A stretch of DNA of 64,000 bases from Azospirillum thermophilum (GTDB lineage Bacteria; Pseudomonadota; Alphaproteobacteria; Azospirillales; Azospirillaceae). Positions 54,262 through 59,865 of this stretch are shown here, piece by piece. Location of the stretch: contig NZ_CP029353.1 in assembly GCF_003130795.1 (NCBI RefSeq), forward strand, positions 1,503,501 through 1,567,500. Reading direction: 5' to 3'. The translations under genes were made by a program, and so were the position numbers. Below the pieces are notes generated by a model, which saw only the letters and a list, made by a program, of their open reading frames with translations, was not told the DNA's origin and did no database searches. Position 1 is the first letter of the stretch, and each line of letters begins with the position of its first letter.

Positions 54262-55869
<1,608 letters not shown>

Positions 55870-55902
55870 CCGCGAATCCCGTACCTGATGCGAAAGACGG
55901 AG

Positions 55903-55937
55903 AAAAGGGCCGGGAGCGGCATCCGCCCCGCGGCCCT
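55903..55937 (-). terminator. rho-independent terminator after asd
   Basis: Minus-strand hairpin: outer 7-bp stem AGGGCCG/CGGCCCT with an inner GCGG-CAT-CCGC stem, followed by TTTCTCC. It lies 84 bp past the asd stop and just upstream of prfC. Confidence 0.78.
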
Positions 55938-56020
55938 GTTCATTCAGCCGTATAGATAACAGTGCCGGGCACCGGGTTAAAGAGCCGAAGAGCCTTCCGG
56001 CGCCCGTCGCACAACAAGAT

Positions 56021-57061
56021 TCAGAGAGCCAGCTCGGCGATCTGCACCGCGTTCAGCGCCGCGCCCTTCAGGAGCTGGTCGCCGCAGACGAACAGGTCGA
56101 GGCCGTGGTCGCCGAAGATCAGGCTGCTGCGGATGCGGCCGACCTCGACGTCGAACTGGCCGGTGGCGTTCAGCGGCATCGGATAGACGCCGTTGGCCGG
56201 ATCGTCCGTCACCGTCACGCCCGGCGCGTCCGCCAGCACCGCACGGGCGGCGTCCGGCGTGACCGGCTGGATCGTCTCGATCGTGATCGCCTCGGAATGG
56301 GCGCGGTAGGTCGGGATGCGGACGGCGGTGCAGCTCACCGGCAGGTCCGGGACCTCCATGATCTTCCGCGTCTCCCAGGTGACCTTCATCTCCTCCTTCG
56401 TGTAGCCGTTCTCCTGGAAGGCGTCGATCTGGGGGATCAGGTTGAAGGGGATCGGATGGCGGAAGACGCTGTTGGTGACCGGCTTGCCGTCGAGCTGGTT
56501 GCGCGTCTGCTCCTCCAGCTCCGCCATGCCCTCGGCACCGGCGCCGCTGGTCGCCTGGTAGGTGGAGACGATGACGCGCTTCAGGCCGAAGGCCTTGTGC
56601 AGCGGGCCGAGCGCCACGACGGCGATGGCCGTGGTGCAGTTGGGGTTGGCGATCAGCCGGCTGCCCGCGGCGTAGGCCTGGCGGAAGACGTGCGCGTTGA
56701 TCTCCGGCACGATCAGCGGGATGTCGGCGTCGTAGCGGAAGGCCGACGAGTTGTCGATGACCAGCGCCCCGCCCTCGGCCAGCGCCGGGGCGTGCTGCTT
56801 GGCGAAATCGCCCGACACCGCCAGCAGAACCACGTCATAGCCCTTCACCACCGCCGGATCGAAGGCCTGCAGGGTCAGCGCGCCGTAGGGGGTCTCCATC
56901 ACCTTGCCGGCGCTGCGCTCGGACGCGAACAGGCCGAGCTCGGCGACCGGGAAGTTGCGGCGGTGGAGAACGCTGACCATCTCGCGGCCGACGGCGCCGG
57001 TGGCACCGACGATGGCGACGCGGCGGGGGGAGGCGGCGGGGTTGCTGGGTTGGCTGCTCAT
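56021..57061 (-). CDS. asd: aspartate-semialdehyde dehydrogenase
   Basis: 346 residues. NADP site [20 protein letters not shown], catalytic cysteine in [20 protein letters not shown], and [20 protein letters not shown]. It makes aspartate semialdehyde, the branch point to lysine/diaminopimelate, threonine and methionine. ATG 57061 has GGAAC upstream and closely follows an attenuator with a threonine-rich leader peptide, so expression is predicted to respond to charged tRNA(Thr) and perhaps tRNA(Lys). A terminator follows. Confidence 0.97.
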
Positions 57062-57114
57062 CGGGAGTTCCGTCCTGTTCCTGGTGTTTCCGGTGCGGAT
57101 CGCGGCCCCCGAAA

Positions 57115-57204
57115 ACAACGAAGGCCCCGTCCGGATCCGGCGGGGCCTCGTGGTGGGTGAAACGCTGGTTCGACCGATCAGCACACGCCACAAGACGGCC
57201 CGCC
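57115..57204 (-). promoter_or_regulatory. transcription attenuator of asd (antiterminator and terminator)
   Basis: Terminator: arm GGCCCCG (57147-57141) pairs with CGGGGCC (57129-57123), enclosing CCGGATCCGG, and is followed by TTCGTTGTTTTC. Antiterminator: GGCGGGCC (57204-57197), inside the last third of the leader ORF, can pair with GGCCCCGCC (57147-57139), the same 5' arm, with one bulged C. The two foldings exclude each other. Ribosome stalling at the Thr/Lys codons upstream would leave GGCGGGCC free and let transcription continue into asd; a ribosome reaching the leader stop would cover it and allow termination. Confidence 0.82.
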
Positions 57205-57255
57205 GAGGCGAGTCGCTTTTTTGGTAGTGGTCGTGGTGGTGGTCATGCGGATCAT
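57178..57255 (-). CDS. asd leader peptide (Thr/Lys-rich)
   Basis: 25 residues, [20 protein letters not shown] then SCGVC and TGA. It holds seven Thr codons in a row (ACC ACC ACC ACG ACC ACT ACC) followed by AAA AAA, and one more Thr. This is the organisation of the enterobacterial thr operon leader, but placed before asd. No Shine-Dalgarno is seen; the promoter spacing suggests that the transcript starts at or next to the A of the ATG, so translation may be leaderless. The end of the ORF overlaps the antiterminator strand. Confidence 0.8.
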
Positions 57256-57262
57256 GGGTGAG

Positions 57263-57291
57263 TACTTATCCGAACGGTTCGGCCTTGTAAA
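57263..57291 (-). promoter_or_regulatory. sigma70-like promoter of the asd leader
   Basis: TTTACA (57291-57286), 17 bases, TAAGTA (57268-57263). The predicted start, 7-8 bases beyond the -10, is at 57256-57255, the leader ATG. No competing promoter pattern was seen between it and asd. Confidence 0.6.
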
Positions 57292-57311
57292 GCGCAAGCT
57301 TCTCTCGAAAG

Positions 57312-57346
57312 GGCGGCCGGCCCGGATTTCCCGGAACACGGCCGCC
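57312..57346 (-). terminator. possible terminator after glgP
   Basis: Minus-strand stem GGCGGCC/GGCCGCC with an inner CCGG/CCGG pair, followed only by CTTTC. It separates glgP from the asd promoter. Confidence 0.45.
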
Positions 57347-57357
57347 ATGATCGCGGA

Positions 57358-59865
57358 TCAGCGGAACCCCTCGCCGCCGTCGTCGACCGCGCGCACCGGC
57401 TTCACCTCCCAGATCTCCTGGGCATACTCGTTGACCGTACGGTCGGAGGAGAACCAGCCCATGTTCGCGGTGTTCAGGATCGCCTTGCGCGTCCATTCCT
57501 CCGGATCGCGGTACAGCTCCATCGCCGCCTCCTGCGCCCGGCAGTAGTCGGCGAAGTCCGCCGTCACCAGGAAATGGTCGCCGCCATCGGTCAGCGCCTG
57601 CAGGATCGGATGGTAGCGGTTGGGATCCTCGGGCGAGAAGACGCCGGTGGAGATCATGTCCAGCGCCCGCTTCAGGCTGGGGTTGGACGCGATCACCTCG
57701 CGCGGGTTGAAGCCGCCGCCGGCCTTCAGGTCGGCGACCTCCTCGGCGGTCAGGCCGAAGATGAAGATGTTGTCGGAACCGACATGCTCGCGGATTTCGA
57801 CGTTGGCGCCGTCGAGCGTCCCGATGGTCAGGGCGCCGTTCAGCGCCAGCTTCATGTTGCCGGTGCCCGAGGCCTCCAGGCCGGCGGTCGAGATCTGCTC
57901 CGACAGGTCGGCGGCCGGCATGATGATCTCCGCCGCCGTGACGTTGTAGTTCGGCAGATAGACGATCTTCAGGTTGTCGTGCACCGCCGGGTCGTGGTTC
58001 ACCACCTTGGCCACGTCGTTGATCAGTTTGATGATCAGCTTGGCCATGTGGTAGGACGGCGCCGCCTTGCCGGCGAAGATCTTGGTGACCGGCACCCAGG
58101 AGACCATGGGGTTGTCGCGCATCTCGTTGTAGAGCGCCACCGCATGCAGCAGATTCAGGAGCTGGCGCTTGTACTCGTGCATGCGCTTGACCTGCACGTC
58201 GAAGATGCTGTCCACCTGCACCTCGACGCCGGTCTGGCGGGCGATGTAGGCGGCGAGCCGCTTCTTGTTCTTGCGCTTGGCCCGGCGGAACTCCTCGCGG
58301 AACACCACGTCGTCCGCCTTCTCCACCAGGGAGGTGAGCTGGCCGAGGTCATGGATCCAGCCGTCGCCGATCCGGCTGGTGATCAGTTCGGACAGGGCGG
58401 GGTTGGCCTGCTTCAGCCAGCGGCGCGGGGTGATGCCGTTGGTCTTGTTGGTGATGCGGTCGGGGAATTCCTGGTGGAAGTCGGCGAAGACCGTCTGCTT
58501 CATCAGGTCGGTGTGCAGCGCCGAGACGCCGTTGACCTTGTGCGAGCCGAGGAAGGCCAGGTTGCCCATGCGCACGCGGCGGTCGCCGCGCTCGTCGATC
58601 AGCGACAGCCGGGCCAGCCGGGCGTTGTCGCCGGCCGCCCGCGCCTTGGAGCGGTTCAGGAAGCGGGCGTTGATCTCGTAGATGATCTGCATGTGCCGCG
58701 GCAGGACGCGCTCCACCATCCGCACCGGCCAGGCTTCCAGGGCCTCCGGCAGCAGGGTGTGGTTGGTGTAGGCGAAGGTGGCGCGGGTAATGTCCCAGGC
58801 GCGGTCCCAGCGCACCGCATGCTGGTCGACCAGCAGGCGCATCATCTCGGCGATGCCGATGGCCGGGTGGGTGTCGTTGAGCTGGATCGCCGCCTTCGAC
58901 GGCAGATCGTCGAAGTTGTTGTGGTGCTGCAGGAAGCGCCGCAGGATGTCCTGCAGCGAGGCGGAGGTGAAGAAATACTCCTGCTTGAAGCGGAGTTCCT
59001 TGCCCGTCTCCGTCGCGTCGTTCGGGTAGAGGACGCGGCTCAGATTCTCGGACAGCACCTTCTGCTCGACCGCCTTCATGTAGGCGCCGTCGTTGAAGTG
59101 GCCGAAGTTGAAGTCGCGCGTCGCCCGCGCCGACCACAGGCGCAGCGTGTTGATCGTCTCGCCGCTGTAGCCGACCACCGGCGTGTCGTAGGCCATCGCC
59201 AGCACGCGCTCGGCATCCACCCAGCGGTAGGCCTTCTCGCCGACGCTGTCGCGGAACTCCTCGACGCGGCCGTAGAACTGCACGGGATACAGCACCTCCG
59301 GCCGCGGGAACTCCCACGGGTTGCCGAACTGCAGCCACTGCTCCGGATACTCGACCTGCCAGCCATGCTCGAAGCGCTGCTCGAACAGGCCGAATTCGTA
59401 GCGGATGCCGTAGCCGTAGCCGGGCAGGGCCTGCGTCGCCATGCTGTCGAGGAAGCAGGCGGCGAGGCGGCCGAGGCCGCCGTTGCCCAGCGCCGCGTCG
59501 GGCTCGGCATCGATCACCTCGTCCATCGACAGGCCCAGCCGGTCGAGCGCCTGCCGGCACTCCTCCATGATCCCCAGGTTGGACAGGCTGTTGGTCAGCA
59601 GCCGGCCGATCAGGAATTCCAGGGACAGGTAATAGACCCGCTTGGCGTCCTCCTGGTAATAGCGGCGGGTGGTGTCCATCCAGCGGTCGACCAGACGGTC
59701 GCGCACCGACAGGGCCACGGTGTGGAACCAGTCGCGCCGCGTCGCCGCCCGGGCATCCTTGCCGACCGAGTAGACCAACCACTCCAGGAACGACCGTTTC
59801 AGGCCATCGACGTCGAGACTGCGGCGTTCGATTTCACGGGTCTTGTACCGAGCGTCCATGTCCAA
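57358..59865 (-). CDS. glgP: glycogen/starch phosphorylase
   Basis: 835 residues, full length for the family. PLP-binding lysine region EASGTGNMKLALNGALTIGT, followed by LDGANVEIREHVGSDNIFIF, and N-terminal YYLSLEFLIGRLLTNSLSNL. It releases glucose 1-phosphate from glycogen. No other glycogen gene is adjacent. Start at ATG 59865 or the in-frame ATG at 59859. Confidence 0.97.
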   Translation of the reverse strand: MDMDARYKTREIERRSLDVDGLKRSFLEWLVYSVGKDARAATRRDWFHTVALSVRDRLVDRWMDTTRRYYQEDAKRVYYLSLEFLIGRLLTNSLSNLGIMEECRQALDRLGLSMDEVIDAEPDAALGNGGLGRLAACFLDSMATQALPGYGYGIRYEFGLFEQRFEHGWQVEYPEQWLQFGNPWEFPRPEVLYPVQFYGRVEEFRDSVGEKAYRWVDAERVLAMAYDTPVVGYSGETINTLRLWSARATRDFNFGHFNDGAYMKAVEQKVLSENLSRVLYPNDATETGKELRFKQEYFFTSASLQDILRRFLQHHNNFDDLPSKAAIQLNDTHPAIGIAEMMRLLVDQHAVRWDRAWDITRATFAYTNHTLLPEALEAWPVRMVERVLPRHMQIIYEINARFLNRSKARAAGDNARLARLSLIDERGDRRVRMGNLAFLGSHKVNGVSALHTDLMKQTVFADFHQEFPDRITNKTNGITPRRWLKQANPALSELITSRIGDGWIHDLGQLTSLVEKADDVVFREEFRRAKRKNKKRLAAYIARQTGVEVQVDSIFDVQVKRMHEYKRQLLNLLHAVALYNEMRDNPMVSWVPVTKIFAGKAAPSYHMAKLIIKLINDVAKVVNHDPAVHDNLKIVYLPNYNVTAAEIIMPAADLSEQISTAGLEASGTGNMKLALNGALTIGTLDGANVEIREHVGSDNIFIFGLTAEEVADLKAGGGFNPREVIASNPSLKRALDMISTGVFSPEDPNRYHPILQALTDGGDHFLVTADFADYCRAQEAAMELYRDPEEWTRKAILNTANMGWFSSDRTVNEYAQEIWEVKPVRAVDDGGEGFR

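Follow-up and report, generated by a model that had tools for sequence, protein, structure and literature searches.

Between the genes for glycogen phosphorylase (glgP) and aspartate-semialdehyde dehydrogenase (asd), the minus strand carries a compact unit in the order promoter-like site, 25-codon ORF, strong GC-rich hairpin and asd (Table 1), which is probably (at about 0.83) a ribosome-mediated transcription attenuator of asd, and which looks like a real, little-described member of this classical kind of switch. The same interpretation had been put forward in a preliminary description of this DNA, and is supported here by the stems, the codon bias and the conservation of the unit. Its anatomy and conservation, two alternative pairings, biased codons and, in models, a dependence on ribosome position are seen in the window (the whole stretch analyzed, 64,000 nt, C2:1503501-1567500 of the 6.78-Mb source genome) and its relatives; the main doubts lie in the weakness of the U tracts, in how far Lys is sensed and in the predicted transcription start.

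Table 1. Features of the asd leader unit and of the related leader before thrS.
Feature	Position	Strand	Basis
-35 element TTTACA	57286..57291	minus	read from sequence; regex-matched in relatives
-10-like element TAAGTA, 7 nt before the leader ATG	57263..57268	minus	read from sequence
Leader ORF, 25 codons + stop (57180-57178), probably leaderless	57178..57255	minus	conserved in 48/48 loci
Control codons, seven Thr then AAA AAA	57217..57243	minus	sequence and codon comparison
Segment 2, antiterminator 5' side, with invariant GGC GGG	57188..57206	minus	alifold, alignment, folding
Segment 3, antiterminator 3' side and terminator 5' arm	57137..57153	minus	alignment pairing, folding
Predicted terminator hairpin with U-containing tail (3' arm 57129-57123)	57112..57147	minus	sequence, folding; hairpin in 48/48 loci
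asd, aspartate-semialdehyde dehydrogenase, putative controlled gene	56021..57061	minus	NCBIfam TIGR01296 asd_B above cut-off
Thr-only leader upstream of thrS, outside the window	G000:C2:2192492-2192505 (L293, L330, L331)

The leader ORF, its codons and its promoter

The product of asd is a branch-point metabolite on the way to Lys/diaminopimelate, Thr, Met and Ile. The gene upstream of the unit is glgP and the one downstream encodes peptide chain release factor 3 (NCBIfam assignments); just after glgP, an inverted repeat at 57312-57346 (GGCGGCCG / CGGCCGCC, then TTTCG) is likely that gene's own terminator. The source genome has two asd genes, the second being 50% identical over the matched part and having no Thr-rich leader in the upstream region searched. 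An in-frame extension of asd from a TTG at 57193 was rejected because relatives start near the ATG of the window copy, with no matching extension noted by eye.

The 25-codon ORF with seven Thr and then two Lys codons is present where the preliminary description had placed it, and the case that it is a real feature rests mainly on comparison. In an 82-genome survey of the family, the window-type asd copy was found in 44 of 45 Azospirillum genomes (all except G009) and in four of five genomes of the sister genus g29, and leader, GGCGGG and hairpin are kept together at all 48 of these loci, so that the Thr run and both stems, whose conservation in close relatives had been proposed as a check, persist in both genera. 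Two further genera (g18 and g25) have window-type asd at 69-70% identity, and a leader scan of these copies (L136, L137) found no such leader; the canonical asd copy has none either. Within the same family, genus g27 has leaders of the form MSKRxQ-Thr-rich-MTKKTTLRGG, also holding GGC GGG, at three of six second-copy asd loci (L147, L161, L163), and no such leader at the other three (L138, L141, L143).

The codons of the run are unusual for their surroundings, as judged against 21 script-picked window ORFs and with the reservation that leader counts are not independent because the leaders are related: AAA makes up 46 of 48 in-run Lys codons versus 15 of 306 Lys codons (4.9%) in the window ORFs, and ACT 48 of 169 leader Thr codons versus 4 of 652 (0.6%). 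In the window leader both Lys codons are AAA, and ACT occurs in two of eight Thr codons. The Gly-Gly pair is written GGC GGG in 28 of 28 unique leader ORFs (GGG: 213 of 1027 Gly codons in the window ORFs), its codons being fixed at the RNA level, while the peptide residues outside the Thr/Lys run and this pair differ between lineages. Rare sensor codons and an RNA-level constraint are both predicted by an attenuator; an unstructured A-rich stretch is another possible reason for the codons. The proposal that Lys is a second sensed amino acid gains from the rare AAA codons and loses from the brasilense-type leaders (TTTTTKTT), which have a single in-run Lys. These leaders also lack the sequence AAAAAAG, at which ribosome slippage had been considered and was rejected.

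In the window, TTTACA and TAAGTA are separated by 17 nt, followed by 7 nt to the ATG at 57255. A regular expression demanding TTTACA or TTGACG, then 17 nt, any hexamer, 5-9 nt and ATG caught the leader in 46 of the 48 loci (TTTACA in 45, TTGACG in L129), the leaders of L131 and L133 being found in a separate upstream scan. The unconstrained hexamer begins with TA in 29 of the 46, and TATC lies one base further on in the other 17; its distance to the ATG, within the allowed 5-9 nt, is 6 (12 loci), 7 (14), 8 (19) or 9 nt (1). Because the -10 stands 6-9 nt before the ATG in these loci, the leader ORF is probably leaderless, a start at or near the ATG being the natural reading. The spacing in relatives thus agrees with the start at the leader ATG proposed earlier, and keeps the predicted start away from a position downstream of the terminator, which the same description had named as contrary to its reading. 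Against the unit counts a consensus scan of 56800-57600, which reported no promoter-like and no terminator-like site. At L014-L024 and other brasilense-type loci, an inverted repeat just upstream of the leader (GGCGCGGGCGC / GCCCCGCGCC, then TTTCGTTT) has TTTACA in its loop and is possibly an upstream terminator overlapping the asd promoter.

Alternative pairings and modelled ribosome position

Folded together with its flanks, the hairpin at 57147-57123 (tail TTCGTTGTTTT) reaches -23.9 kcal/mol, with a z of -3.46. Its 5' arm can instead pair with the end of the leader ORF (57206-57199 with 57137-57144, and 57196-57188 with 57145-57153) at -36.1 kcal/mol (z -2.18; equally good in 3 of 200 shuffles), an alternative pairing that agrees with the earlier description and is longer than was then stated. 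The predicted antiterminator and terminator share segment 3 and are mutually exclusive, and both are conserved. Without constraint, alifold recovered the antiterminator (GGCGGG paired to CCCGCC and GTGG to CCAC, plus a small helix at the apex) from 31 unique sequences that ended before the terminator 3' arm. In the alignment 96.8% of 555 cells pair, versus 43-56% when slid by 1-3 columns; changes on both sides occur in 21 cells at two pairs, and the covariation score reaches 0.183 versus 0.131 in shuffles, values that none of 500 shuffles equalled in either case. Two of five measures, the number of pairs with both-side changes and the number of pair types, were not above shuffles, and the changes follow clades and therefore represent a single event or a few. 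Among the 31 unique sequences the stem of the terminator is almost invariant, 100% paired with one variable pair. As to the GC-rich terminator with a U-rich tail, the hairpin and the T-rich tail of the window copy stand, and the tail is weak in most relatives, the nine bases that follow the stem containing only four T at 41 of 48 loci (e.g., TCGTCGTATCCG).

A protector hairpin, CTCGC-TTCG-GCGGG, was considered and dropped: it forms in some free RNAs (0.86 in L003, 0.55 in L132) and does not form in most of those listed. In the interval between hairpin and asd at L003-type loci, CGGGGTCCG is able by eye to pair with CGGAACCCCG and cover the asd ribosome site, possibly a second, translational layer of control.

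Ribosome position was modelled by masking a footprint codon by codon on RNA lacking the terminator 3' arm, a cut that amounts to an assumption about timing and was chosen after a complete-hairpin equilibrium model had shown little switching. A ribosome ahead of the run then leaves the antiterminator at a mean probability of 1.0, one whose A site is in the run at 0.97 and one on the T-R-x-G-G codons that follow at 0.04, the drop just past the run placing the switch edge at the end of the Thr/Lys run; the mean is 0.07 in the tail, 0.48 at the stop codon and 0.72 without a ribosome. Since the antiterminator also forms with the ribosome on codons ahead of the run, and averages 0.48 at the stop, not every sequence has a clean off state. 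A less strict measure, applied with footprints of 10, 12, 15 and 17 nt, gives the antiterminator 0.86-0.91 on Thr and 0.64-0.92 on Lys codons, falling to 0.33-0.44 just after the run and 0.37-0.39 along the tail, with 0.65-0.83 at the stop. Compared with 200 versions each having segment 2 shuffled, in four of the 31 sequences, the contrast was rarely equalled for L001 (0), L014 (6) and L132 (8) and was not unusual for L003 (23 of 200 as strong). On the complete hairpin at equilibrium, the terminator has mean probabilities of 0.86 with the ribosome on Thr codons, 0.97 with it on Lys codons and 0.96 with it at the stop, and of 0.98 in free RNA; since the terminator dominates on all codon kinds, the switch would need a kinetic decision. 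For most sequences the model further predicts read-through of untranslated leader RNA, in which they would differ from the classical trp attenuator.

Related leaders and alternative explanations

When both strands of the source genome were searched for five ACN codons in a row, 45 overlapping matches resulted (275 for the reversed control pattern), and among the 30 matches made into loci only two short leader-like ORFs were seen by eye, the asd leader and one upstream of thrS. The latter (MINRTALTTATTTTTAFGGRGSGRAPD) starts about 410 nt before thrS, with nearly 300 nt between leader and gene, and has its own promoter-like arrangement (TTGACA, 17 nt, a poor -10 GAGAGT, 6 nt, ATG), GGCGGG and a hairpin with CCCCGCCG..CGGACGGGG, the same core as in the asd leader. 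The genome has this hairpin pattern at three places, the two leaders and one site that by eye looks coding. BLASTN of the thrS leader against the copy-1 leaders gave 42.8 bits (E 2e-7), the best of 300 query shuffles being 31.9. With thrS as a control gene, a run of at least four ACN within 1500 nt upstream was found at one of 29 oriented loci (L357 having been dropped from 30), that of the source genome itself, and a related Thr leader was not found at the other 28. The thrS leader is thus likely a copied attenuator module, as judged from sequence.

Across Alphaproteobacteria (289 genomes), 108 upstream regions, L002 and L026-L031 among them, were scanned for at least six Thr/Lys in ten codons with at least three Thr, and short ORFs of this kind precede asd in 11 of 108 in the sense direction and 0 of 108 in antisense. 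Nine other families have Thr/Lys ORFs before asd (f2, f5, f38, f44, f70, f105, f121, f148 and f155). At five Thr/Lys and on the sense strand alone, 10 of 14 scored loci in f38 and 12 of 14 in f105 have them, a few being doubtful (e.g., L316); f121 has leaders at four of four, and f70 at 9 of 26 with six Thr/Lys (antisense 0 of 26). The thresholds, set after the first sight of Thr-rich leaders, differ slightly between scans (six or five in ten codons). Dropped before counting were L173 and L177 (asd start not located), L307 and L308 (f38), and L378, L380, L381 and L384 (f70); L212 and L323 are the same gene and count once. Script-detected U-tract terminators stand upstream of asd at 11 of 14 scored f38 loci and 4 of 14 f105 loci, and the script found none with the nine f70 leaders.

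In the leader ORFs of L175, L298 and L299 (f105, f38) the Thr/Lys run is preceded by clusters of Met (MDSMMM, MMMAM), which may mean added Met sensing or merely several start codons. Outside the class, about 200 nt upstream of the asd match in L037, a MAG of the Deinococcales, lie an ORF starting with GTG (VNVWYTTTTTI) and a hairpin with a T tail, with a broken-looking asd start in between. The patchiness of the distribution counts against the attenuator reading. There is perhaps an even chance that asd attenuators are widespread but patchy in Alphaproteobacteria, reading Thr and Lys (in some families perhaps Met) jointly through rare codons so that a single switch follows the competing branches, that the module arose or spread repeatedly, and that in the source genome a copy went to thrS, the threonyl-tRNA synthetase gene, and lost its Lys codons.

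The weakness of the U tract raises the possibility that the same leader and hairpin work through Rho-dependent termination or through RNA processing coupled to leader translation. This appears unlikely: the tails with four T at 41 of 48 loci, and the f70 leaders and 10 of 14 f105 loci without a script-detected U-tract terminator, would fit it, against which stand the fully paired, almost invariant stem, the T-rich tail of the window copy and the classical terminators in f38. It is highly improbable that the leader acts chiefly as a trans-acting peptide or small regulatory RNA with asd control secondary, for which the Sinorhizobium peTrpL leader peptide, reported to act in trans, offers a precedent (PMC7298713): apart from the Thr/Lys run and GG the peptide varies, whereas the constraint on the Gly codons is at the RNA level, and other families again have leaders before asd whose peptides are otherwise dissimilar; a trans role and attenuation of asd are in any case compatible. 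That there is no regulation at all, the hairpin merely ending glgP transcription and the Thr run having arisen by chance in an A-rich, unstructured stretch near the promoter, is hardly credible, for although glgP lies upstream and rare ACT and AAA could come from selection against structure, glgP has its own hairpin, 11 of 48 loci keep leader and hairpin although no glgP end was found in the 384-551 nt upstream (the spacer perhaps being longer in some), and the Thr/Lys ORFs before asd were found in the sense direction in 11 of 108 regions and in antisense in none.

Proposed mechanism and known systems

For the attenuator, we infer the start site, the termination itself and the direction of response as follows. 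The transcript would begin with the leader ATG or no more than a few bases from it, and its leaderless end would be where a ribosome loads. When charged Thr-tRNA or Lys-tRNA is short, it would slow in the run of rare Thr/Lys codons, leaving segment 2, just past the footprint, to pair with the emerging segment 3, which would block the terminator and allow asd to be transcribed. With both amino acids plentiful, the ribosome would cover segment 2, segment 3 would pair with segment 4, and transcription would stop before asd. If the leader does read Thr and Lys, it would use translation to sense two branches that compete for aspartate semialdehyde, and the wider set of leaders would suggest a role for unannotated small ORFs before asd, perhaps including the translated Sinorhizobium SEP5.

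Among the titles and abstract openings covered by a literature search, none dealt with a leader-peptide attenuator of asd; one may be described in Vitreschak et al. 2004 or elsewhere. Rfam, searched with window positions 55000-59000 at E up to 1, gave one chance snoRNA match only, and 20 related loci matched no family at the gathering score, Thr_leader included.

In E. coli, thrL encodes a Thr-rich leader peptide with alternative hairpins, controls thrABC and reads Thr and Ile. The asd leader resembles it in the Thr-rich peptide, the alternative hairpins and the Thr-pathway gene, and differs in combining Thr with Lys, in preceding asd and in its probable leaderless start. The preliminary description had named the enterobacterial thr leader as the known parallel; a closer published one was found in SEP5 of Sinorhizobium meliloti, a translated sORF that has six Thr and three Lys codons towards its 3' end and is located in the 5'-UTR of a gene that its authors name aspartate dehydrogenase, proposed as a possible leader peptide and reported as conserved only in Sinorhizobium, according to the parts of the paper available (PMC10117765). 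By its description SEP5 agrees with the asd leader in architecture, a Thr/Lys codon cluster in an upstream sORF, and may be a homologue whose gene, called aspartate dehydrogenase, may be asd; the available description of SEP5 includes no structures or switch (PMC10117765). The trpL of S. meliloti, as far as the accessible accounts go, is a ribosome-dependent attenuator that senses Trp and controls trpE(G), with an RNA that begins with the leader AUG (PMC7298713, PMC10117765). Like the asd leader it is alphaproteobacterial; the position of the ORF at the RNA 5' end is established for trpL and predicted for asd, and trpL shows that leaderless leader ORFs exist in Alphaproteobacteria.
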